From: Cyanobacteriota bacterium
Lineage (GTDB): Bacteria; Cyanobacteriota; Cyanobacteriia; PCC-6307; Cyanobiaceae
Length of the DNA: 42,000 nt
Assembly: GCA_026389285.1 (NCBI GenBank)
Contig: JAPLID010000175.1
Location: forward strand, 1-42,000
Direction of reading: 5' to 3'
The position numbers and the translations under genes were made by a program. The notes under the pieces were generated by a model. That model made no database searches. It was given only the letters and a program-made list of their open reading frames with translations, and was not told where the DNA came from. Below are positions 28,148 through 37,541 of the stretch, piece after piece (positions within the stretch are counted from its first letter, which is position 1; each line of letters begins with the position of its first letter).

Positions 28148-29100
28148 ATCACGCCGGCCTGCCGCCAACGGTCGCGACACTGCCGATCGCGCTGTTCTCG
28201 CTGCAGCTGGCGGCGCTCGCCTGGCTGGGGCTGGAGATGTTGGCGCGGCAGTTCCGCGCGGACACGCTGGACCAGGTGCTGCTGCAGCGCTCGCGCCTGA
28301 GCATCAGCGCCACCCTGCTGGTGGGTGTCCTGGGATGGTGGCTGTTGGATGAGCAACGGCGCCTCGGCTGGGAGCTGCCCCGCGAGGGCCGCGACGTGCG
28401 CGACTTGTGATCAGCCTCAGCATCGCCTGGACCAGCTGCGCTACGGTGAAATGCTGATTCAGCAGGTCGACGCCAACCGCCACTGGCTGCCGCAGCGCTC
28501 CCCCACAGACCGCCGCGCCTTGCTCGATCTCACCGACAAGCTGGTCTCCACCACGGTGCTGCTGCTGGCGGCCTTGGTGGTGCTGCAACTACTGGGGGTG
28601 TAGCCGGCCCTGCTGCTCACCACCAGCGGCTTCGGCACCGCGGTGGTGGGCTTCGGGGCCAAGGCACTGCTGGAGAACCTGCTGAGCGGCGTGATGATCT
28701 ATCTGTTCCACCCGTTCACGGTGGGCGACTGGATCGAACTGCCCGACAAACGGCTGCCAGGAACGGCGCGGACGATCGGCAGCTACTACACCGAGCTGCT
28801 CACAGCCGAGCGGGAGCCGCTGCTCGTGCCCAACGCCCTGTTCGCCGGCTTCGCTGTGGCCAACGACAGCCGCCGCGACCACCGCCGAGCTTGCGCCAAA
28901 GCCTGGTGCACGTCCCCGCCATCGATCAGGAGCTGCCACGGCGGGTGCACGTCAGCGCTATCGACCAGCGCGGCCTGAAGCTGAGGCTGGAGGCGTTTGG
29001 TCCGGCTGATCCGGAGGCGGCGCAGAACCTGCGCCAGGAGCTGTTGCTGGCCCTGGCGGCCGCAGTGCGGCGCCAGAGGGCCGTCTTCAGATCAGCTCCG
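28144..29100 (+). pseudogene. Broken mechanosensitive channel (MscS family) gene
   Basis: The reading starts well at MNHAGLPPTVATLPIALFSL (28144) with TM-like segments, but hits TGA at 28408-28410. The homologous reading goes on in another frame (QPQHRLDQLRYGEMLIQQVD) up to a TAG at 28601-28603, right in the MscS core. The same frame continues after the stop with FGTAVVGFGAKALLENLLSG, VMIYLFHPFTVGDWIELPD and LVPNALFAGFAVAND, the conserved MscS pore helix and beta domain. Near 28885 it shifts back to the first frame (LRQSLVHVPAIDQELPRRV). Two frameshifts and a stop make it a pseudogene. The exact 3' end is unclear. It lies in the ribD transcript and directly borders the A/T-richer island. Confidence 0.85.
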
Positions 29101-29185
29101 GATGGAGCGGGTCTCCCTAGACATAAATCCTCCGCGCTTATAGTCGCCAAAGACGAAGTCAATTTCGAATCTTTTCACCATCAAA

Positions 29186-30814
29186 ATGTTGACCTTTCGA
29201 CCGCAGACCGAAAAGAATAGCAAGGGCGCACTTAATCCGCCTGAACAATCAGCGCTACTGCTGATACTACTAGTCGTGGGATCTTTGCTGTGGTTTGGCT
29301 GGCTGGAATGGCCCGGCCTTCATTGGGATGCCGACTTGTTTTGCTCAGCGCTTATGAATGTCGCGCTGAAGAATGAATGGAGCTTCAATAGCTACTCCCA
29401 GTTTCTCATAACTAAGCCTACCAACGCCTATGACTTTCATGGCGTCTTGCAGATTTGGTTCTATGCGAAACTGCTGCACGTGCGAAGTTGGCAGCAGCTA
29501 TCGATTGCGATGGCCGTGGTTAACATCCTTACCTTTTTGATCTGGTTATTGCTGTACCAAAACGCCTGCTGGCGACGTGGCCGCCGTCTGCCATGGCTGC
29601 AGGCTTCCTTGATGGCTTTGGTACCCGCCGTCATCGTCCTGGGATTACAAGGCCGTCCTGAGCAACTGGCACCGCTGCTCCTGGCAGTGCCAGCCATGAC
29701 GAGGGAGCTGGGGTGGCATTCAGTGATGCGGCGATCTGTTGATGGCATCACTCTCGGTACCTTGTTCCTGCTTTCCCCTCTTGTGGGTCTGATGGGCTGT
29801 ATGGGTTACAGCTTTTGGGTAGCGGCTGAGCGCCAATTCCCTTGGAACAAAAGGGCCGAAATGCTTGCACCAGTACTTCTGCTGACTTTTGTGGTATCTG
29901 CGCTGGGCGTCTCGATGATCAGCCCGATCGGCTTTCTGACCTGGCTGCAGAATCTTCGAGCAGGCGGTTCGACTGTACCGTTCAGTTGGGTGATTCCAAA
30001 CGCGAAAGCCTGGCGATGGGGGACGACACTTCTGGCACCGTTCTGGAGCATGGTGTTGGCAGCAGCAGTGTTGAGCGCTCTGGCTCGGTGGCTACGCAAC
30101 CGCCAGCTGATCGTGGTGGCCGCAGCGATTGCTGCACTGATCTGGGTCAGTCAGCGAGGGTTGGATTACAGCTACACTCCCTTTCTGCCCATGATTCTGC
30201 TGCTCTGGATTGATCAGCGTCTGCTGGTTCCAAAGCAACCGCGCTTGCGCTACCTGGGCTTGAAGCTATTGCCCCTCATTTTTGCGCTCGCCTATGGACT
30301 GATGTTTGGGCAACAACTTTTCTATTCATTCATCGTGCTTCGGGAGGGTGGTACACCAGCACAAGCCAGGCTGATGATCAATGCTTTTCGCGATCCAGGT
30401 ATACCTGCGGGCCAGCAAACCTTGGCTACTAGCATGGCTCAGGGACGTGCTGGCCTTGTACTGGCCTCCGCCGAAACCCCGACCATTGGTTTACCTTGGT
30501 CTGCATCGAATGAATCCGAACCTTGGCCATTCTGGTCGCTGAATCGATTTGAGCAGAAAGACGAAAGAGACGTTAAATTGTTTGTGTTACAGCAAAGCCA
30601 TAACGTAATTTACACCCCCCCGCCATCAATGATTTACCTCGACGACAATCAACCATTTGTTTTGGTCAAAGATGGATGGAAACGGCAATTCTCTTTTCTG
30701 GAGCGGCGACTGATCCCAGCGCGGCTGGGCAACGGCTTTTGGCTGGCAGTATACAAAAGAGGTAACAGTTTACCGCAGCAATCGGCGAGAAGCCATGAAG
30801 GAAAGCCCGGATGA
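29186..30814 (+). CDS. Polytopic membrane protein, GT-C/GtrC-like candidate
   Basis: 542 residues with about ten hydrophobic segments (LLLILLVVGSLLWFGWLEW, MALVPAVIVLGLQG, SMVLAAAVLSALARWL, LIVVAAAIAALIWVS, LLPLIFALAYGLMFG) and a soluble C-terminus of about 130 residues. The first loop, WPGLHWDADLFCSALMN, has an Asp pair soon after TM1, the place where GT-C glycosyltransferases keep the catalytic acid. By length and layout it could be the third component of a Gtr system, transferring the flipped sugar to a surface glycan. I do not recognise a named family. Its last 45 bases overlap the convergent GtrA-like gene. Confidence 0.7.
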   Translation: MLTFRPQTEKNSKGALNPPEQSALLLILLVVGSLLWFGWLEWPGLHWDADLFCSALMNVALKNEWSFNSYSQFLITKPTNAYDFHGVLQIWFYAKLLHVRSWQQLSIAMAVVNILTFLIWLLLYQNACWRRGRRLPWLQASLMALVPAVIVLGLQGRPEQLAPLLLAVPAMTRELGWHSVMRRSVDGITLGTLFLLSPLVGLMGCMGYSFWVAAERQFPWNKRAEMLAPVLLLTFVVSALGVSMISPIGFLTWLQNLRAGGSTVPFSWVIPNAKAWRWGTTLLAPFWSMVLAAAVLSALARWLRNRQLIVVAAAIAALIWVSQRGLDYSYTPFLPMILLLWIDQRLLVPKQPRLRYLGLKLLPLIFALAYGLMFGQQLFYSFIVLREGGTPAQARLMINAFRDPGIPAGQQTLATSMAQGRAGLVLASAETPTIGLPWSASNESEPWPFWSLNRFEQKDERDVKLFVLQQSHNVIYTPPPSMIYLDDNQPFVLVKDGWKRQFSFLERRLIPARLGNGFWLAVYKRGNSLPQQSARSHEGKPG

Positions 30815-31159
30815 AATGCAAATCACTACCAACCCTGAGAGACGCGGATCCATCCACTGGCTTGCACAGCCATTCGCCGCAGAAGCGATAGCACCGACTC
30901 CGATTTGCAAACCACACTGTATGCAAAGGTTTGCGAGATCAAGGCGCTTGCGATGAGTTATGCGAACGTGCAAAAAACTTCCAATAAGCATACCAACGAA
31001 AAATGCAATAAAATAAGATATTGAGGGATCAACGACCGCTAATAGCAATAAGTACGCGCCGTAACTGGAAACAAAGTTAATACTTGCCGAGAAAGCGAAT
31101 CGTTGAAGTACTGGCCAGCGTGAAGGTGATGAGAATAATCGCGATGGCCTCCACATCAT
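30770..31159 (-). CDS. gtrA: GtrA-like membrane protein (undecaprenyl-linked sugar flippase type)
   Basis: 129 residues from the ATG at 31159; a TTG at 31168 directly next to the previous stop is the alternative. Four TM segments with the GtrA pattern: RFAFSASINFVSSYGAYLLL, ISYFIAFFVGMLIGSFLHVR with the following basic ITHRKR, IGVGAIASAANGC, and LVVICISSGLSFMASRRLL. GtrA-type proteins are thought to move undecaprenyl-phosphate-bound sugars across the inner membrane. It is last in a minus-strand group with the acetyltransferase/isomerase fusion and the GtrB-type transferase. Confidence 0.8.
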   Translation of the reverse strand: MMWRPSRLFSSPSRWPVLQRFAFSASINFVSSYGAYLLLLAVVDPSISYFIAFFVGMLIGSFLHVRITHRKRLDLANLCIQCGLQIGVGAIASAANGCASQWMDPRLSGLVVICISSGLSFMASRRLLR

Positions 31160-31168
31160 CAAATTCAA

Positions 31169-32116
31169 TCAAGAAGAGGTGCTGCCGCTGAGGAGAAGAA
31201 ACTTATTGTAATCGCGAATATAATCATCGGGATCATAAGGGTGGGATGCAAAAACTAATAGGCTTGCCGACGGGCTGAACTTGTATTGTATGCCCCATAC
31301 CAATGGAGGGAGATACAAACCTAAGTTGGGGACGTCAAGTCGAAATTCCTCTCGCTCACAACCGTCATCTACGACAACGCTACAGGATCCGGCGGCACAA
31401 ACAAGAAACTGCTCACAAACATGATGGGCGTGTTCCCCGCGGACATATTTACTAGGTACGTCGTGGACGATGAAAAAGCGTTGCGGAGTAAAGGGAAGAT
31501 CCTTGGCCACATCAGCAACACACAGTGAACCGCGCAAATCTGCAAAACTGGATAGCTTGAGTAAGTACACCCCTTGGACACTGGATTTCAGTGTTTCTGG
31601 CATTTGATTGAGTGAAGACCCCGAGTCGGCGGGGAAATGTTGACTGCGGACAGGAGCGTCGCTTTTGGCGTAGCCGATGATGCGGGCCGGATTGCCGTAG
31701 ACCATTGCTTGGGGCGGCACATCCTTGGTTACCACAGATCCAGCGCCAACCATGGCACCAGAGCCAATGCTGATGCCTGGAAGAATAACGGACCCGGCAC
31801 CAATCGAAGCTCCACGCTTTAAGTGTGTCGTAGGATAACTGCTGAGATGCTGCTTTGAACGAGGCCAAAGATCATTGGTGAACGTAACGTTTGGCCCAAC
31901 GAATACATCATCATCAATCACGATCCCGTCCCACATCTGCACTCCAGACTTCACGGTAACGCGATTACCGATGCGAACGTTATTTTCAATAAAACAGTGG
32001 GAGCAAATATTGCAATCTGAACCAATCTCTGCGCCCTCAAGGATAACAACAAACTGCCAAATCGTTGTTCCTGAGCCAATGCGCTTGGCTTCAACTTGTG
32101 ATGATGAATGAATCAT
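31169..32116 (-). CDS. fdtD: Bifunctional sugar N-acetyltransferase / 3,4-ketoisomerase (FdtD/WxcM-like)
   Basis: 315 residues. Residues 1-150 are a left-handed beta helix of hexapeptide repeats (IGSDCNICSHCFIENNVRIG, VGPNVTFTNDLWPRS, GASIGAGSVILPGISIGSGA), as in the FdtC/WbbJ 3-N-acetyltransferases. Residues 178-310 form a cupin with RGEHAHH at 226-232, as in the FdtA/WxcM dTDP-4-oxo-6-deoxyglucose-3,4-ketoisomerases. The fused form is known from FdtD of Shewanella denitrificans and WxcM proteins. It would catalyse the first and last steps of dTDP-3-acetamido-3,6-dideoxyhexose (Fuc3NAc or Qui3NAc) synthesis; the middle step is the DegT-type protein at 35546. One base separates it from the preceding glycosyltransferase gene. 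Confidence 0.88.
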   Translation of the reverse strand: MIHSSSQVEAKRIGSGTTIWQFVVILEGAEIGSDCNICSHCFIENNVRIGNRVTVKSGVQMWDGIVIDDDVFVGPNVTFTNDLWPRSKQHLSSYPTTHLKRGASIGAGSVILPGISIGSGAMVGAGSVVTKDVPPQAMVYGNPARIIGYAKSDAPVRSQHFPADSGSSLNQMPETLKSSVQGVYLLKLSSFADLRGSLCVADVAKDLPFTPQRFFIVHDVPSKYVRGEHAHHVCEQFLVCAAGSCSVVVDDGCEREEFRLDVPNLGLYLPPLVWGIQYKFSPSASLLVFASHPYDPDDYIRDYNKFLLLSGSTSS

Positions 32117-32117
32117 T

Positions 32118-33071
32118 TCAGGACGGCTGGGATATCGTGAAGTTTAGCTTACTTCGGATCAATGCCAATGGGCGATTCTTGGTGTTGTCAAACGCTCGCC
32201 AAGTGTAAAGACCAACGATTGCAACAACTAGATTGTTGAGCATGCAGCAACACAAAATCAGGATCGCCAAGGCTGCGTATCCAGGCACTGTGATCACTCC
32301 AAGCAGACGCAAAATCGCAATCGCTGTAGCGGCGCTAATTGCGAATATAAAACCAAAACAACTCAGCCAAAGAAATACACGAATGGGAAGATCCGAGAAG
32401 GAAAGTATACTATCTGACATATAACGAAGTCGCTTGGCTATCGTCCATGCCGAACTTCCTTCTTGCCGCTTTTGACGCTCATAAGGAATGAAGGCACGAC
32501 GGTAACCAAGCCACATCAACTGGGACACAAGCGATGAGTTAGCTTCATTGAGACGCATCAGGTCATCACGAACCTGAGCAGTGCAGGCAAAAATATCAAT
32601 CCCACCCTTGGGGATATCCGGCAGGATCAGACGACGATACAATCCCCAGAACAAACTGGAGAGCAGGCGTGTGGAGAGCGGGTCATCCCTGCCGACCCTC
32701 TGCCCAAACACCAAATCAACCTCGCCAGAAGCCAACGAATGAAACATCTTCAACACCAATTCAGGTGGTTCCTGGAGATCAGCTGCCATGACAGCCATCA
32801 TGGATCCCCTGGCATGATTCATGCCAACGCGGATAGCGGCAAAGGAACCAAAATTGCGCGTCAATTCAATCAAAGTACCCCGCAGAACCCCTTCATTAGC
32901 ACTTTGTCTTAGTAATTGAGACGAAGCATCCGGAGAACCATCTACGACAAAAATAATCTCAAGCTTGCAATCTAATTCTGCCTGGAGCTGCAAAAGAACT
33001 TTCAGCAGCCGAGGAATTGAGCCCTCACTTTTGTAAATCGGAACGATCAGCGAATAGAGGTTGGATGTCAC
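32118..33071 (-). CDS. gtrB: GtrB/DPMS-type family 2 glycosyltransferase
   Basis: 317 residues from the only available start, a GTG at 33071. GT2 blocks: YSLIVPIYKSEGSIPRLLKV, IIFVVDGSPDASS (nucleotide-sugar binding Asp), ELTRNFGSFAAIRVGM and MAVMAADLQEPPEL with the DXD-type motif. Then two C-terminal TM segments (FLWLSCFGFIFAISAATAIA and LAILILCCCMLNNLVVAIVG). This is the layout of GtrB and related polyprenyl-phosphate glycosyltransferases, which load a sugar on undecaprenyl phosphate. The group with a GtrA-like protein and sugar-nucleotide genes strongly suggests a Gtr-type pathway; the sugar could be the 3-amino sugar rather than glucose. Confidence 0.87.
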   Translation of the reverse strand: MTSNLYSLIVPIYKSEGSIPRLLKVLLQLQAELDCKLEIIFVVDGSPDASSQLLRQSANEGVLRGTLIELTRNFGSFAAIRVGMNHARGSMMAVMAADLQEPPELVLKMFHSLASGEVDLVFGQRVGRDDPLSTRLLSSLFWGLYRRLILPDIPKGGIDIFACTAQVRDDLMRLNEANSSLVSQLMWLGYRRAFIPYERQKRQEGSSAWTIAKRLRYMSDSILSFSDLPIRVFLWLSCFGFIFAISAATAIAILRLLGVITVPGYAALAILILCCCMLNNLVVAIVGLYTWRAFDNTKNRPLALIRSKLNFTISQPS

Positions 33072-33157
33072 AGATAATCGAGAATAATAGAAAATTTTTC
33101 AAGTAAGATTTATCCGAGCGAAGGCTGGCATGGCTATGTCAGCGAACCCTCCAATGA

Positions 33158-33826
33158 TCAAGCCCAACAACAATCAGCAGGAACAAATGTTCGCAATTTG
33201 TGTAGAATAAAGAGCATTCCTTCGAGACCTATGTAAGTATAAGCAAAGCGGTTGCATGTCCATGGGATGCCGGATACCGAACAAAGAATTGATCTAAGCC
33301 CAGATTCGGTACGGACATAGCGACCTCGGTCCATGTACCTAACCAGCCAAGCCCAAGGGCGGCGCCAAGAGGACCTCGGCCAAACAGTATCGAAGATGAT
33401 AATCTTCCCGCTGGGACGAACGCATCGAATCATTTCACTCACACAGGCCACAGTAGACTCATCAGTGAGATGATGAAATAAACCCATCGCTCGGGTTTCG
33501 TCAGAACAAGAATCGCAAAACGGAAGTTTATCAGCACTGGACTTGAAGGCGAGTCGTTTAGGAAGAGATTTAGGATTAAGAAATAAGCCGGGATCAGTGC
33601 TAACGGTAGAAGCATATTGACGAAGATAATCAGTATTTACGTCCACTCCCACAAGCGTTCCATTTGGTTCCGGAGACGGTTCAGGCCCGCAGCCCACATC
33701 AAGTATAATCCCAGTAGATTCGGCAAAAGCTTTGCGCCACTGTGCTGCAAGCAATTTGCGAGCACCAGGCAGCATCAACAACTGAATCAGTAGGTAGACT
33801 CCAGGAATCTCAAGAAGGCGATTCAT
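33158..33826 (-). CDS. SAM-dependent methyltransferase (class I)
   Basis: 222 residues. The class I core is visible: GIILDVGCGPEPSPEPNG (motif I, residues about 39-56), VGVDVNTDYLRQYA, KLPFCDSCSDETRAMGLFHH and VSEMIRCVRPSGKIIIFDTV. No typical N-terminal TM beyond one hydrophobic stretch (IPGVYLLIQLLML). It stands first in the minus-strand group, 86 bases before the GtrB-type gene. A role in methylating the lipid-linked sugar or a glycan is an inference from place only. Confidence 0.8.
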   Translation of the reverse strand: MNRLLEIPGVYLLIQLLMLPGARKLLAAQWRKAFAESTGIILDVGCGPEPSPEPNGTLVGVDVNTDYLRQYASTVSTDPGLFLNPKSLPKRLAFKSSADKLPFCDSCSDETRAMGLFHHLTDESTVACVSEMIRCVRPSGKIIIFDTVWPRSSWRRPWAWLVRYMDRGRYVRTESGLRSILCSVSGIPWTCNRFAYTYIGLEGMLFILHKLRTFVPADCCWA

Positions 33827-33987
33827 TAAAGGAACTTAGGAGTAAATCATGGGCTGTTACGAAAAGTGTTACAACCCCCTCTTACGTTACCATGTCTGAT
33901 GTCTGAGATGCATTTCCCCGATCCCAGCATCTCGTTCCCGCCCCAGCTCATTCCATCCTGCCGATGGAACTGCTTTCATGCCTCTGG

Positions 33988-34026
33988 CTTGTAGCGATTG
34001 CGTGACAAGCTTGCGGTAGCTACAAG
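33988..34026. repeat. Inverted repeat between divergent methyltransferase and acyltransferase genes
   Basis: CTTGTAGC (33988-33995) and GCTACAAG (34019-34026), exact inverted 8-base arms. The spacer contains the perfect palindrome CAAGCTTG (34006-34013). It lies about 130 bases before the acyltransferase ATG and 160 bases before the methyltransferase ATG, a fitting place for an operator or promoter hairpin. The rest of the 33827-34101 spacer shows nothing else. Confidence 0.55.
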
Positions 34027-34158
34027 CAAGACAGAAACGGATGACCAGTACTGCTTAACATGATGGACTATTTAGAGGCATGACAGATTAACTTCATTAA
34101 GGTGAGCAGGGTCTTAGGATTAATCTTTTGTTCAATAACCGTATCTTTTTTCCTAGTC

Positions 34159-35250
34159 ATGAACGTCAGCACAGGCTATCAGCAAGAAACAGGCCGCATC
34201 GCATTCCTGGACTTCTTGCGCATCATTGCATTTTCAAGTGTCCTTATTGGCCATAACTTCTATGATCAAGCTAAATCCTTTGCTGCGAATTCTTCCATTC
34301 ATGCGACTCCTCGGCTGCTTGTGGGTTGGGCGCTCCCGCTCTCCGAGGCTGGCGGGGCAGGAGTTGTTATTTTCTTTCTGATTTCTGGTTACATCATCAG
34401 CCGTATTCTTACTAGGCAGTCCACTTGGAAATTCCTATTCAAACGTATATTTCGAATATACCCTCTCTACATAGCTGCTGTACTTATGCAGGCAATTTAC
34501 CAATGGCGAATTGCCAGTCCAATCCCTTTTTCAGTTCTTGGTCCGCAACTTTTGCTGATTGGTGATTTCTTTGCAACTCCATACTCTCTTGGAGGCGTGG
34601 AATGGACCCTACGCATAGAAATGGTCTTCTATGTGTTGATGGCATGCCTGCAATCACTTGGCTTGATGCATAATCGTGCCAAGTGGCTGCCTTGGATACT
34701 TTTAATTTGTCTTTGGGTGCTGGCTTTTTTGCCACCATTCCCCATCTCCCCATCGTGGTCGAAAGGATATACAAATCTGTACGCACCTTTTCTTGTCTTT
34801 GGAATCTTTATTGATCTTTACGAAAGGCGTAGAGTCAATTTTGTCTGGCTTGCCTGTGTCGGCTTGTTTGTATGCGGACAACACTTTTTTTTAATTAGTA
34901 AATACCAACCGTCTTGGCTGAATGCCCATTTTGCCATTTTAGCTCTTGCTCTATTCCTAGTTTGCTGGGTATTGCGCAATCTATTCATTGTCAACTCATG
35001 GATCCTATTTCTATCGAGCTTGACTTATGGAGTCTACTTGTTCCACCTCTGGACATGGCGACCGATGGGTGATTTTCTTCAGAGAGTTCGCCTTCCTTGG
35101 CTTCCAGTTGATCTCCAGCGCCTGGTTCTTTTGCTGAGCCTTTGTTTGCTGATGAATTATTGTGTGGAGCGGCCTGCAATCCGTTTTGCAGAAAAGCTAC
35201 TTCAGTATTGGTCAAGGCGATTCAGTCCACTCAATTCATCTGGCTCCTAG
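34159..35250 (+). CDS. Membrane acyltransferase, acyltransferase-3 family
   Basis: 363 residues from the ATG at 34159; a GTG at 34102 would add 19 residues. The family start FLDFLRIIAFSSVLIGHNFY has the active-site His after TM1. Further blocks are GAGVVIFFLISGYIISRILT, FLFKRIFRIYPLYIAAVLM and SLGGVEWTLRIEMVFYVLM, followed by about six more TM segments and LTYGVYLFHLWTW, WLPVDLQRLVLLLSL. The family O-acylates (often O-acetylates) surface polysaccharides, LPS or small molecules. The glycan island context points to modification of the surface glycan. A composite inverted repeat begins exactly at its stop codon. Confidence 0.85.
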   Translation: MNVSTGYQQETGRIAFLDFLRIIAFSSVLIGHNFYDQAKSFAANSSIHATPRLLVGWALPLSEAGGAGVVIFFLISGYIISRILTRQSTWKFLFKRIFRIYPLYIAAVLMQAIYQWRIASPIPFSVLGPQLLLIGDFFATPYSLGGVEWTLRIEMVFYVLMACLQSLGLMHNRAKWLPWILLICLWVLAFLPPFPISPSWSKGYTNLYAPFLVFGIFIDLYERRRVNFVWLACVGLFVCGQHFFLISKYQPSWLNAHFAILALALFLVCWVLRNLFIVNSWILFLSSLTYGVYLFHLWTWRPMGDFLQRVRLPWLPVDLQRLVLLLSLCLLMNYCVERPAIRFAEKLLQYWSRRFSPLNSSGS

Positions 35251-35302
35251 TTGCCAATCGGTGGATTTAATATTTACGGGAATGCTGCCATTCCCTGGCA
35301 AC
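35250..35302 (+). terminator. Nested inverted repeats behind the acyltransferase gene
   Basis: The outer arms GTTGCCA (35250-35256) and TGGCAAC (35296-35302) enclose the perfect hairpin GGGAATG-CTGC-CATTCCC (35278-35295). The structure starts at the last base of the stop codon. No T-run follows, so termination is only likely. Confidence 0.4.
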
Positions 35303-35407
35303 CATGAGATGAAGGAAGCTTTCAGTCATGCCCTTGTCAAGCCCCTTCGCACGCATGGCACCGCTTTCGAGTAGATTATTATTGCTGTTCTGCTCGACGA
35401 ACGAGCC

Positions 35408-35518
35408 ATGCCTGAGCTGAGTTCCACAAGTTTGATCAGCGATTTCCAGCTGTCAGCCATCGCAGCCCTCGTTGTAGTCTACCCATCAGTCTTTCTGAAC
35501 GGATTCGGCTCTGAATGA
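35408..35518 (+). CDS. Possible 36-residue single-TM peptide
   Basis: Frame from ATG 35408 to TGA 35518. The peptide starts MPELSSTSLISDFQLS and has one long hydrophobic stretch, AIAALVVVYPSVFLNGF, which would span the membrane once. A weak GAG lies six bases before the start. It stands between the acyltransferase and the aminotransferase genes, in the same direction. I recognise no family and no known small photosystem subunit; it could be chance. Confidence 0.3.
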   Translation: MPELSSTSLISDFQLSAIAALVVVYPSVFLNGFGSE

Positions 35519-35545
35519 TTACAATCAACTTCTTACAGCAACACA

Positions 35546-36649
35546 ATGATTTTTGTTGGTGATCCACGTCCAAGGGCTGCGAGGCGTCGAGCTGATCTCC
35601 TCCAGTGTTTCGACCAGTTTCTTGCAGATGGGCGTTTCGTGCTCGGACCGGGTGTCACTAGCTTCGAGCAGGCCTTCTCCGACTACACGGGCATCCGAAA
35701 TTGCATCGGTGTAGCCAACGGCACAGACGCCATTGAGCTTGCCCTTTCTTCCCTTGGCATTGGGGCGGGTGATCGGGTCGCCACCGCCGCCAATGCTGGT
35801 GGCTATGCGAGTACCTCTCTCGCTGCCGTCGGAGCAGTGCCGCTCTACATCGATGTCGAACCCGATACCTGCTGCCTATCGATTGGTGCAGTCGAGCACT
35901 GTCTCGCCAGCAGGCCTCGTGCCTTGATCGTGACACACCTCTATGGTCGCATCGCCCCAGAGATCAGCGCAATTGCCGAGCTGTGTCGGCGCCATAATGT
36001 TTTCTTGATTGAAGATTGCGCTCAAGCCCATGGCTCTCGGATGGCCGGCCATCACGCGGGAAGCTTTGGAGACGCCAGCAGTTTCAGTTTCTACCCCACG
36101 AAGAATTTGGGTGGGCTCGGCGATGGAGGTGCTATCTGCACCAATGATGATGCTGTAGCTGAGAGATGTCGACAACTCAGGCAATACGGTTGGCTCAGTA
36201 AATATGAAGTTCAACGTCCCATGGGGCGCAACAGCCGTCTGGATGAGCTGCAAGCTCGCTTTCTGGAACTGTTCCTAGCGGATCTGGATGAGGAGAATCA
36301 GAAGAGAATGCTTCTAGCTTCACGTTACCACGAACAGATCACGCATCCCGGTTTGTTTTTGCCACCTGCACCTAGTGATTCCAGTAGCCATGTTTACCAC
36401 CTGTTCGTTGTCCAGGTGCGCCAGAAAAGAGAGCATCTGCAGCAGCACCTGAAAAACCACGGGATCCTTAGCGATATTCACTATCCCATCCCGGACCATC
36501 TTCAGGGCGTGCACTGGGCCAAAGCAGAGGTTCGCCTTCCAGTTACTGAAGACCTGGCAGCCAGCGTTCTGTCTCTTCCGTGCTATCCGGATCTCGAGTC
36601 AGCTGATCAGGACCAAGTAATCGAGGCGGTGAATAGTTGGTCCCAGTAG
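35546..36649 (+). CDS. DegT/DnrJ/EryC1-type sugar aminotransferase (FdtB/QdtB-like)
   Basis: 367 residues. PLP fold type I: FVLGPGVTSFEQAFSDYTG, ANGTDAIELALSSLGI (phosphate-binding loop), VFLIEDCAQAHGSRMAG at 152-168 with the Asp that contacts the pyridine N, and FYPTKNLGGLGDGG with the PLP Lys186. RPMGRNSRLDELQARFL and IHYPIPDHLQGV are typical of 3-aminosugar transaminases of the FdtB/QdtB/DesV group. With the FdtD-like fusion it would make dTDP-3-amino-3,6-dideoxy-galactose or -glucose. Sequence alone does not decide between the galacto and gluco forms. It is alone, at the right end of the island. Confidence 0.88.
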   Translation: MIFVGDPRPRAARRRADLLQCFDQFLADGRFVLGPGVTSFEQAFSDYTGIRNCIGVANGTDAIELALSSLGIGAGDRVATAANAGGYASTSLAAVGAVPLYIDVEPDTCCLSIGAVEHCLASRPRALIVTHLYGRIAPEISAIAELCRRHNVFLIEDCAQAHGSRMAGHHAGSFGDASSFSFYPTKNLGGLGDGGAICTNDDAVAERCRQLRQYGWLSKYEVQRPMGRNSRLDELQARFLELFLADLDEENQKRMLLASRYHEQITHPGLFLPPAPSDSSSHVYHLFVVQVRQKREHLQQHLKNHGILSDIHYPIPDHLQGVHWAKAEVRLPVTEDLAASVLSLPCYPDLESADQDQVIEAVNSWSQ

Positions 36650-37010
36650 GTTCATCAATCTCCATGACAGATGAATTTATGTCGCTGTTGTGATAGCGCT
36701 AAAATTTGAATTCGCAATCGCGATGGTTTTATTTCCTGCCTTGGGAGGGGTGCTAATTAAAGCGTAATTTGTTCGCTGATGTCTTTGAGGCTTATGGCAG
36801 CAATCTTGAATTTTTCAAGAGGAACCTCCAGCAGGCCAATCCTCCTGTAGGGGCACTCGTACCCAAGAAAGGACTCCCTGCGTTGCCCCCACTGACTTTT
36901 TGTTGGGGGAGGTAGCTGGTTCCTTGCAACCAAGGCTGCTTACGCTGATCCCTTCGTCAACGCAACCCTCTCAGCTCTCCGGGCGGCCTTGGGTCCAGGC
37001 CAGGTTGTCA
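36650..37010. other. Spacer at the right edge of the island
   Basis: 361 bases in which the base composition changes from A/T-rich to GC-rich. From a TTG at 36769 a plus-strand frame is open for 48 codons to TAG at 36913-36915 with a protein-like sequence (AYGSNLEFFKRNLQQANPPV), which could be the remnant of a lost gene or element; no homologue can be named. Nothing else recognised. Confidence 0.4.
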
Positions 37011-37541
37011 TCAGATCAGCTCGGGATGCAGCGGATCCCCCTTGAAGGGGCCCTCCAGTTCCGCAGTGATCCAGCCGCCGTAGAAGCCGCCGGGCTGGGG
37101 GATCACCCGCTCACCATCCAGCCAGCAGCTGTCCATCAAGCCCGGATAGAGCCCATACCAACCGGCCAGGGCCGCAAAGGCCGGGGCCGGTTCGAGGTAT
37201 TGCCACACCGCCCGGTTCAGGCGCCGCGACAGGCCTTCGGCGCCGGGGGCGACCACATCGAAATAGCGGGCCACGCCCTTCCACTCGCAGAAGCTGTGGC
37301 CCGGCGCCAACTGCAGCACGGCCAGATCCACCCCCTCGGGCGGCAGGTAGAAGCTGGGTGGATGGAAGGTCTCCAGCACCCGCAGCGAGCGGTGCGTGTC
37401 GACCAGCACCCGGCCGAAGGCCTCGACCCTCACATGGCGGGCGCAGATCTGCAGCGCCGGTGGGCGCGGATAGGCGGCCACCCGCTCACGGCCGTCGGGC
37501 AACTGCCAGGGATGAAGCGGTGGCTCCGTCATCGTCTCCAT
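37011..37541 (-). CDS. DUF427 family protein
   Basis: 176 residues. The DUF427 blocks are clear: VLETFHPPSFYLPPEGVDLA, FCEWKGVARYFDVV, AFAALAGWYGLYPGLMDSCW and ERVIPQPGGFYGGWITAEL. The family is a small beta-rich fold found widely in cyanobacteria and actinobacteria without an established reaction. GC-rich and in normal housekeeping codon style, so outside the island. The next minus-strand gene upstream is the Nif11 protein, 18 bases away, so both may be in one transcript. Confidence 0.88.
   Translation of the reverse strand: METMTEPPLHPWQLPDGRERVAAYPRPPALQICARHVRVEAFGRVLVDTHRSLRVLETFHPPSFYLPPEGVDLAVLQLAPGHSFCEWKGVARYFDVVAPGAEGLSRRLNRAVWQYLEPAPAFAALAGWYGLYPGLMDSCWLDGERVIPQPGGFYGGWITAELEGPFKGDPLHPELI

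Follow-up and report, generated by a model that had tools for sequence, protein, structure and literature searches.

A stretch of 42,000 nucleotides from a bacterium of the Cyanobiaceae (Cyanobacteriota; GenBank assembly GCA_026389285.1, contig JAPLID010000175.1, positions 1 to 42,000), hereafter called the window, contains an island of seven genes in which GtrA- and GtrB-like proteins stand beside enzymes predicted to make a 3-amino sugar. Classical Gtr systems add glucose from undecaprenyl phosphate-glucose (PMC11127046; statements attributed to papers refer to the available part of each text), and it is difficult to tell from the sequence of a GtrB-type enzyme which donor it uses. Which sugar would such an island handle, and where would it be attached? 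We consider it likely that the island encodes a surface-glycosylation module of the three-component (Gtr) type that brings along its own supply of an amino sugar. The new element, from sequence comparison, is that the GtrB proteins of such cassettes form one clade with alanine at position 94 (numbering of Synechocystis sll0501) in all 22 members that have an FdtA domain nearby, the window included.

The enzymes predicted to make the sugar were assigned by profile and structure-database searches. In Pfam the fusion protein FdtD has both a Hexapep (78 bits) and an FdtA domain (158 bits), and it matches the WxcM-like protein 4mzu of the PDB over its full length with the same two-domain architecture (E value 5.6e-111), the difference being sequence divergence only. 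Its RGEHAH motif contains, by alignment, both catalytic histidines of FdtA, His49 and His51. We take 4mzu to be from Shewanella denitrificans and its biochemistry to involve inversion at C4, hence Fuc3NAc (3-acetamido-3,6-dideoxygalactose), as the product. The catalytic role of the two histidines is taken from the available part of the review literature. The exact substrate of the DegT-type aminotransferase is not fixed by similarity, because its best PDB matches, with similar scores, are a scyllo-inositol transaminase (7b0d, E value 4.8e-78), a putative aminotransferase (5u1z) and QdtB (3frk, E value 5e-76). The FdtA domain occurs once in this genome (assembly 88.5% complete, 223 contigs), namely in the window. 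A first-pass annotation of the same DNA had placed the source of the precursor elsewhere in the genome, and rmlB was indeed found on another contig (C82:16068-17090, 421 bits, above the cut-off), as was rmlA in split form (C94:5570-6396), as two adjacent pieces in different frames with 200 and 259 bits, each below the cut-off.

On the membrane side, GtrB aligns over residues 6-306 with sll0501 (5ekp), the Synechocystis GtrB of known structure (E value 3.9e-38), and the GT2 domain is followed by two hydrophobic C-terminal transmembrane segments in a hydropathy scan, so that at the sequence level the protein belongs to the GtrB type. The candidate GtrA occupies the position of GtrA in other cassettes; two further GtrA matches were found in this genome, on contig C42 (fused to a GT2 domain) and on contig C87. 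The profile searches proposed in the first-pass annotation thus placed GtrA, GT2, FdtA with hexapeptide, and DegT above the Pfam cut-offs, while none of the NCBIfam matches listed for the island proteins reached its cut-off.

These assignments suggest the following pathway. RmlA and RmlB, encoded elsewhere, would produce dTDP-4-keto-6-deoxyglucose (dTDP, deoxythymidine diphosphate), which the C-terminal half of FdtD would isomerise to the 3-keto sugar. DegT would then aminate C3, and the N-terminal domain of FdtD would acetylate the new amino group, the product being most likely dTDP-Fuc3NAc (galacto configuration) and less likely dTDP-Qui3NAc. The variant GtrB would then transfer the sugar to undecaprenyl phosphate, GtrA would flip the lipid-linked sugar to the periplasm, and a membrane glycosyltransferase, possibly the 542-residue protein of the island, would attach it to a glycan of the cell surface, for instance the O-chain.

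The linkage of these genes is found in distant bacteria. A scan of genome contigs with the FdtD of the window as query gave 46 loci, 22 (L053-L074) with both domains in one open reading frame (ORF) and 24 unfused, two of the latter (L085 and L093) showing no FdtA domain. Of the 22 fused loci, 17 encode a GtrB like that of the window; its gene stands immediately upstream of fdtD in 16 of them and at a distance of 3.6 kb in L073. One of the 24 unfused loci, L086, also has such a GtrB. The 17 loci also carry DegT (16; truncated in L072, where the contig ends), GtrA (16) and a GtrII-type transferase (8, that of L055 on the opposite strand), the GtrA profile having been seeded with five cassette members and the window, and the GtrII profile with three cassette members. 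Pfam searches on nine cassette proteins identified GtrII (PF14264) in three of four large proteins encoded after gtrA and GtrA in three of four small ones, and gave nothing for the 1173-residue ORF of L071. The genes usually stand in the order degT-gtrB-fdtD-gtrA-transferase; in the window gtrB, fdtD and gtrA are almost contiguous on the minus strand.

In five plasmid records a match spanned at least 80% of FdtD, and three of these were opened. One (L129) has GtrB and GtrA; an Azospirillum plasmid (L128:7042-12828) has the variant GtrB, FdtD, DegT, a 743-residue hypothetical protein and, in the slot of GtrA, an EamA-family small transporter, GtrA not being found; the third (L127) is discussed below. 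Among 373 genomes sampled from the window's own phylum, 20 had an FdtD match at 1e-40 or better, of which only that of the window covers both domains. In the remaining 19 the match extends over the acetyltransferase portion, and in 15 of them the approximately 3 kb examined also contains FdtA as an ORF of its own. Across 42 genomes of the genus, this one among them, the best match in any other genome has an E value of 5e-30 over residues 10-151. The variant GtrB clade was seen in Pseudomonadota, Nitrospirota, Acidobacteriota, Bacteroidota and Bacillota besides the window's phylum. As judged from these sequences, the cassette is not a local arrangement and its linkage recurs across phyla. The joining of a Gtr donor arm (GtrB and GtrA) to a supply of 3-acetamido-3,6-dideoxyhexose, proposed in the first-pass annotation, is thus supported.

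The same loci bear on another route, in which Fuc3NAc is built into the O-antigen repeat in the cytoplasm and exported by Wzx/Wzy, while GtrA and GtrB serve another sugar. In L127 the fused gene is clustered with that of an O-antigen translocase and GtrB is absent, and five of the 22 fused loci lack GtrB as well. We nevertheless regard this route as very unlikely, given the tight gtrB-fdtD-gtrA run, the presence of GtrB in the other 17 loci and the change of a sugar-contact residue in the GtrB clade that goes with FdtA.

This change concerns the DXD motif. Where sll0501 has DADLQD, the GtrB of the window has AADLQE, so that the motif is not intact, the first aspartate (D94) being replaced by alanine and D99 by glutamate. 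In sll0501 the DXD motif spans residues 94-96, and D94, D96, R122, D157 and R200 are presented as active-site residues (PMC4728340). In PfDPMS, Asp89 is close enough to the C2 hydroxyl of the donor, and His94 to its C3 hydroxyl, for a hydrogen bond; Asp89 does not bind metal, and the D89A variant retains some activity (PMC5526996). Since position 94 of sll0501 is equivalent to Asp89 of DPMS, we read it as a sugar contact and not as a metal ligand, and the Asp and Gln equivalent to the DPMS metal binders described in that paper are kept in the window. Alignment with sll0501 of 21 cassette GtrBs (window, L053, L055-L062, L064-L067, L069, L071-L073, L086, L128, L129) gave alanine at position 94 in all of them, with D96, Q98, R122, D157 and R200 kept; at position 99, 20 of them have Glu and the one of L086 has Asp.

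As a control, plasmids and phages were searched with the window GtrB (123 and 120 matching records, respectively), and 13 loci were opened (10 plasmid, 3 phage), one of which, L157, was chosen in the knowledge that an FdtC-like gene adjoined its GtrB. Eleven have Asp94 and no FdtA on the stretch examined, L157 has Ser94, and L154 has Ala94. A residue table was compiled with sll0501 as query from the GtrB-like proteins of all loci retrieved, a distance of up to 4.5 kb counting as near. Those with an FdtA domain near comprised 22 with Ala94 and one with Asp94; those without FdtA on the stretch examined comprised 12 with Asp94, one with Ser94 and none with Ala94. The single Ala94 locus among the 13, from Acetoanaerobium (Bacillota, unannotated; L154/L167), turned out to bear a cassette: within 6 kb (L167:352-6284) it has an acetyltransferase-like ORF, GtrB, a 339-residue ORF, a PMT_2 protein (28.6 bits, cut-off 26.1), DegT, an unfused FdtA and GtrA (48.6 bits), in this order. 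In a phylogenetic tree all Ala94 GtrBs fall into one clade (support 100/99) together with that of L157, a Solidesulfovibrio plasmid (L157:4377-7041) on which the Ser94 protein lies beside an epimerase and the FdtC-like acetyltransferase.

The altered residue 94 fits a donor with an acetamido group at C3. We lean towards the view that this separate clade charges undecaprenyl phosphate with dTDP-3-acetamido-3,6-dideoxyhexose and that the replacement of D94 by Ala, perhaps together with that of D99 by Glu, helps to determine specificity by creating space for an acetamido group at C3. As a second marker Glu99 was weakened, and we treat the position as unspecific, because two of the 12 Asp94 controls (L156 and L161) also have Glu there. 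A recheck left our estimate unchanged: Glu99 proved unspecific, but the Bacillota locus, found blind, contained a full cassette.

Several observations weigh against the reading of the island as an amino-sugar Gtr module, or against parts of it. The Ala94 proteins form a single clade, so that Ala94 and the FdtA neighbour may trace to one event, and the adjacency of GtrB and FdtA arises partly by construction, because 21 of the 22 Ala94 members come from the window or from loci retrieved with FdtD. L157 shows no FdtA on the 12.9 kb examined; a second GT2 protein in L053, 1.1 kb from FdtD, has Asp94; Glu99 occurs in the two controls named and is missing from the Ala94 protein of L086; and FdtD of L127 does without GtrB. 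The FdtA of Acetoanaerobium has Asn at the second catalytic histidine (His51). FdtA His95, a stereochemistry residue, was rejected as a guide to Fuc versus Qui: every fused FdtD compared, including those of the window and 4mzu, has Gly there, neither His nor Arg. GtrA is marginal, just above the Pfam cut-off and with one hydrophobic segment over the threshold of a simple hydropathy scan; members of the GtrA family have four transmembrane helices. DegT is detached from the gtrB-fdtD-gtrA run and on the opposite strand, rmlA is split across two frames, which reflects either an assembly error or a broken gene, and the 542-residue protein shows no GT-C similarity.

A further alternative concerns the acceptor. 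The sugar might go to lipid A, core or protein instead of the O-chain, in a periplasmic modification like that with 4-amino-4-deoxy-L-arabinose (ArnB-ArnC-ArnT). GtrB also matches ArnC (9bhc, E value 2e-25), ArnB belongs to the same DegT family (1mdo, E value 6e-37), and the Acetoanaerobium cassette has a PMT_2 transferase, the group to which ArnT belongs. The stronger match of GtrB to sll0501, the GtrII-type transferases in several relatives and the precedent of O-antigen branching in Xanthomonas make this acceptor unlikely in our view.

That precedent, the wxcK-wxcO genes of Xanthomonas (lipopolysaccharide region 3), is by analogy the nearest experimental one. PMC12573098 labels the five products, in order, transaminase, glycosyltransferase, bifunctional acetyltransferase/isomerase, sugar transferase and sugar translocase. 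With the last two taken as membrane-type proteins, this order of gene kinds is also that of the proteobacterial cassettes, and the region has been linked to Fuc3NAc as a side branch of the O-antigen (PMC4878081, PMC12573098, PMC2238763). wxcN encodes a small membrane protein, and Tn5 mutants in wxcK and wxcN lose O-antigen FucNAc, polar effects being possible (PMC4878081); wxcO encodes a 750-residue integral membrane protein, in place of which other strains have a different ORF of 730 residues (PMC2238763). Going by these descriptions, wxcL would be GtrB-like, wxcN GtrA-like and wxcO the transferase, the last two being labelled the reverse way in PMC12573098. Mutants of the wxc region resist a phage proposed to use Fuc3NAc (PMC12573098). 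All five gene kinds lie within 29186-36649, though not in one run, with the 542-residue protein as the large membrane protein. The window differs in its detached degT, in gene order and strands, and in the added methyltransferase and acyltransferase. The first-pass annotation had suggested a different surface-modification module here; in principle it is not new, since wxcK-wxcO is already tied to Fuc3NAc branches.

Other known systems are more distant. The three-component systems of phages P22 and SfV share GtrA and GtrB with the island, but their GtrB has DVDLQD and no own sugar supply was present in the stretches seen. Three-component systems for pentofuranoses (GT136) follow the same logic of polyprenyl-phosphate-sugar synthase, flippase and GT-C transferase, with a different synthase, a MATE flippase and sugars of the ribofuranose family; the same paper names glucose, galactose and pentofuranoses as sugars, and its main text has no word starting with "Fuc" (PMC11127046). 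A literature search whose coverage left out most subscription journals found no paper combining Fuc3NAc, GtrB and undecaprenyl phosphate, and no title among the matches listed reported undecaprenyl phosphate-Fuc3NAc, which is no proof of novelty.

The candidate for the terminal step is the 542-residue protein, described in the first-pass annotation as polytopic and GT-C-like. Its polytopic nature stands, with eight hydrophobic segments, none beyond residue 375; the GT-C likeness finds no sequence match. No Pfam, NCBIfam or PHROGs match exceeded the cut-off (the sub-threshold Pfam match is PsbX, E value 0.085), a profile search of the PDB gave chance matches only, and hhalign gave probabilities of 1.3% against GtrII and 0.1% against a PMT_2 protein. 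An AlphaFold2 model from three sequences was unusable (predicted local distance difference test score 39, predicted template modelling score 0.26). Only two homologues were found, one of 552 residues in the relative G002 and a truncated paralogue in the own genome, where it lies at the edge of contig C79 (L100:74-919), and wider searches returned the same two genomes among 299, 386 and 400 (overlapping samples). The three proteins have in common a WPGLH.DA stretch.

We give a role as terminal transferase about an even chance, because the gene lies beside gtrA, its product is polytopic and the slot holds varied large proteins in other cassettes. Somewhat less probable, though a serious contender, is that the protein has nothing to do with the cassette and is separate cargo of a variable junction, with a transferase encoded on another part of the chromosome or contig set using the Fuc3NAc donor. 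The full-length homologue in G002 lies at the same junction without GtrA, GtrB, FdtD or DegT, a paralogue stands on contig C79, a PMT_2 protein is encoded on contig C42, and the lack of a GT-C match also favours this account. Yet the protein is the island's only large polytopic one besides the acyltransferase, the 3' end of its gene overlaps that of gtrA, other cassettes often have a large polytopic protein after gtrA, and in Xanthomonas other strains have an unrelated gene in place of the last one, wxcO (PMC2238763).

The layout of the island is given in Table 1. All seven ORFs of the first-pass annotation (29186-36649) were recovered from the reading frames at the positions given there. They do not form one operon, because they are split between a minus-strand run of four (methyltransferase-GtrB-FdtD-GtrA) and three genes on the plus strand (542-residue protein, acyltransferase, DegT).

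Table 1. Features of the island and its boundaries, in positions of the window
Feature	Position	Strand	Evidence or context
Left 39-bp direct repeat, degenerate	29083..29121		End of decayed mechanosensitive-channel gene; left island boundary
Polytopic orphan membrane protein of 542 residues, candidate terminal glycosyltransferase (putative role)	29186..30814	+	ORF; 8 hydrophobic segments
GtrA-like small membrane protein, candidate flippase	30770..31168	-	PF04138 GtrA_DPMS_TM 27.0 bits, cut-off 26.1
FdtD/WxcM-type fusion, 315 residues	31169..32116	-	N-terminal hexapeptide N-acetyltransferase and C-terminal dTDP-sugar 3,4-ketoisomerase
GtrB-type polyprenyl-phosphate glycosyltransferase	32118..33071	-	PF00535 Glycos_transf_2 73 bits; PHROG GtrB-like 184 bits
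Class I S-adenosylmethionine methyltransferase, first gene of minus-strand run	33158..33826	-	PF08241 Methyltransf_11 26.8 bits, cut-off 21.2
Acyltransferase-3 membrane O-acyltransferase, candidate glycan O-acetylase	34102..35250	+	PF01757 99 bits; PHROG O-acetyltransferase 147 bits
DegT-type aminotransferase, candidate 3-keto-6-deoxyhexose transaminase (FdtB-like)	35546..36649	+	PF01041 315 bits
Right 39-bp direct repeat	37007..37045		3' end of DUF427 gene; right island boundary

The two repeat copies are identical at 33 of 39 bases and score 48, against a mean of 18.8 and a maximum of 29 in 200 shuffles. The island has a foreign base composition: the G+C fraction is 0.497 over 29122-37006 and 0.680 and 0.665 in the left and right flanks of the window. 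It drops from 0.69 to 0.55 between 1-kb windows at the left repeat and is 0.68 in the one starting at 37000. The mechanosensitive-channel-like gene at 28160-29100 is broken up among several frames and has a stop at 28601-28603, and its counterpart in the relative G026 is a single open frame (L104:14450-15724; PF00924, 46 bits).

The junction was surveyed in 21 genus members (L099, L104-L123) out of 41 relatives. RibD, SRAP and FtsH occur together in all 21 and DUF427 in 19. In G026, whose FtsH is 98% identical, the mechanosensitive-channel ORF runs into DUF427, which represents an empty site. By tblastn none of the 21 has cassette proteins at the junction; one weak FdtD match (26%) in L105 lies outside it. 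In G002 (L099:6853-11064) the homologue of the 542-residue protein lies between DUF427 and a DUF427-like fragment. Other ORFs are present at the junction in L109, L115 and L120, with a Mutator-type transposase in L115. The junction is variable, empty or differently filled in relatives. A phage origin of the island was considered and dropped: six records of the phage collection match FdtD, none covering 80% of the query, and no integrase was recognised in a search limited to the seven main ORFs.

The methyltransferase and the acyltransferase, which the first-pass annotation had counted as parts of the module, are not conserved in the cassette. For the methyltransferase, phmmer gave no match at 1e-4 in the other loci, and as core parts both were rejected, phmmer having found neither beside other cassettes. 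Weak matches to the acyltransferase (tblastn, blastp) occur in L060, downstream of a Microvirga cassette, and in L099. Judging from its family, the acyltransferase could O-acetylate the glycan. GtrB, a methyltransferase and GtrA stand together in L155, in L163 and on contig C87 of the own genome, where a cluster (L102:10482-16409) comprises an NDP-sugar (nucleoside diphosphate-sugar) epimerase, DegT, a methyltransferase, GtrB (with DDDLQN), GtrA and a 526-residue polytopic protein; this cluster is possibly another amino-sugar Gtr-like system.

If our reading of the island and of its GtrB is correct, position 94 would allow amino-sugar Gtr systems to be predicted in genomes from sequence alone. 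The wxcK-wxcO genes of Xanthomonas would then be a three-component system, which would give a concrete periplasmic mechanism for the Fuc3NAc branch, the proposed phage receptor (PMC12573098). In the bacterium studied here, the island would show how amino-sugar Gtr chemistry can be brought into a new host at a variable junction.

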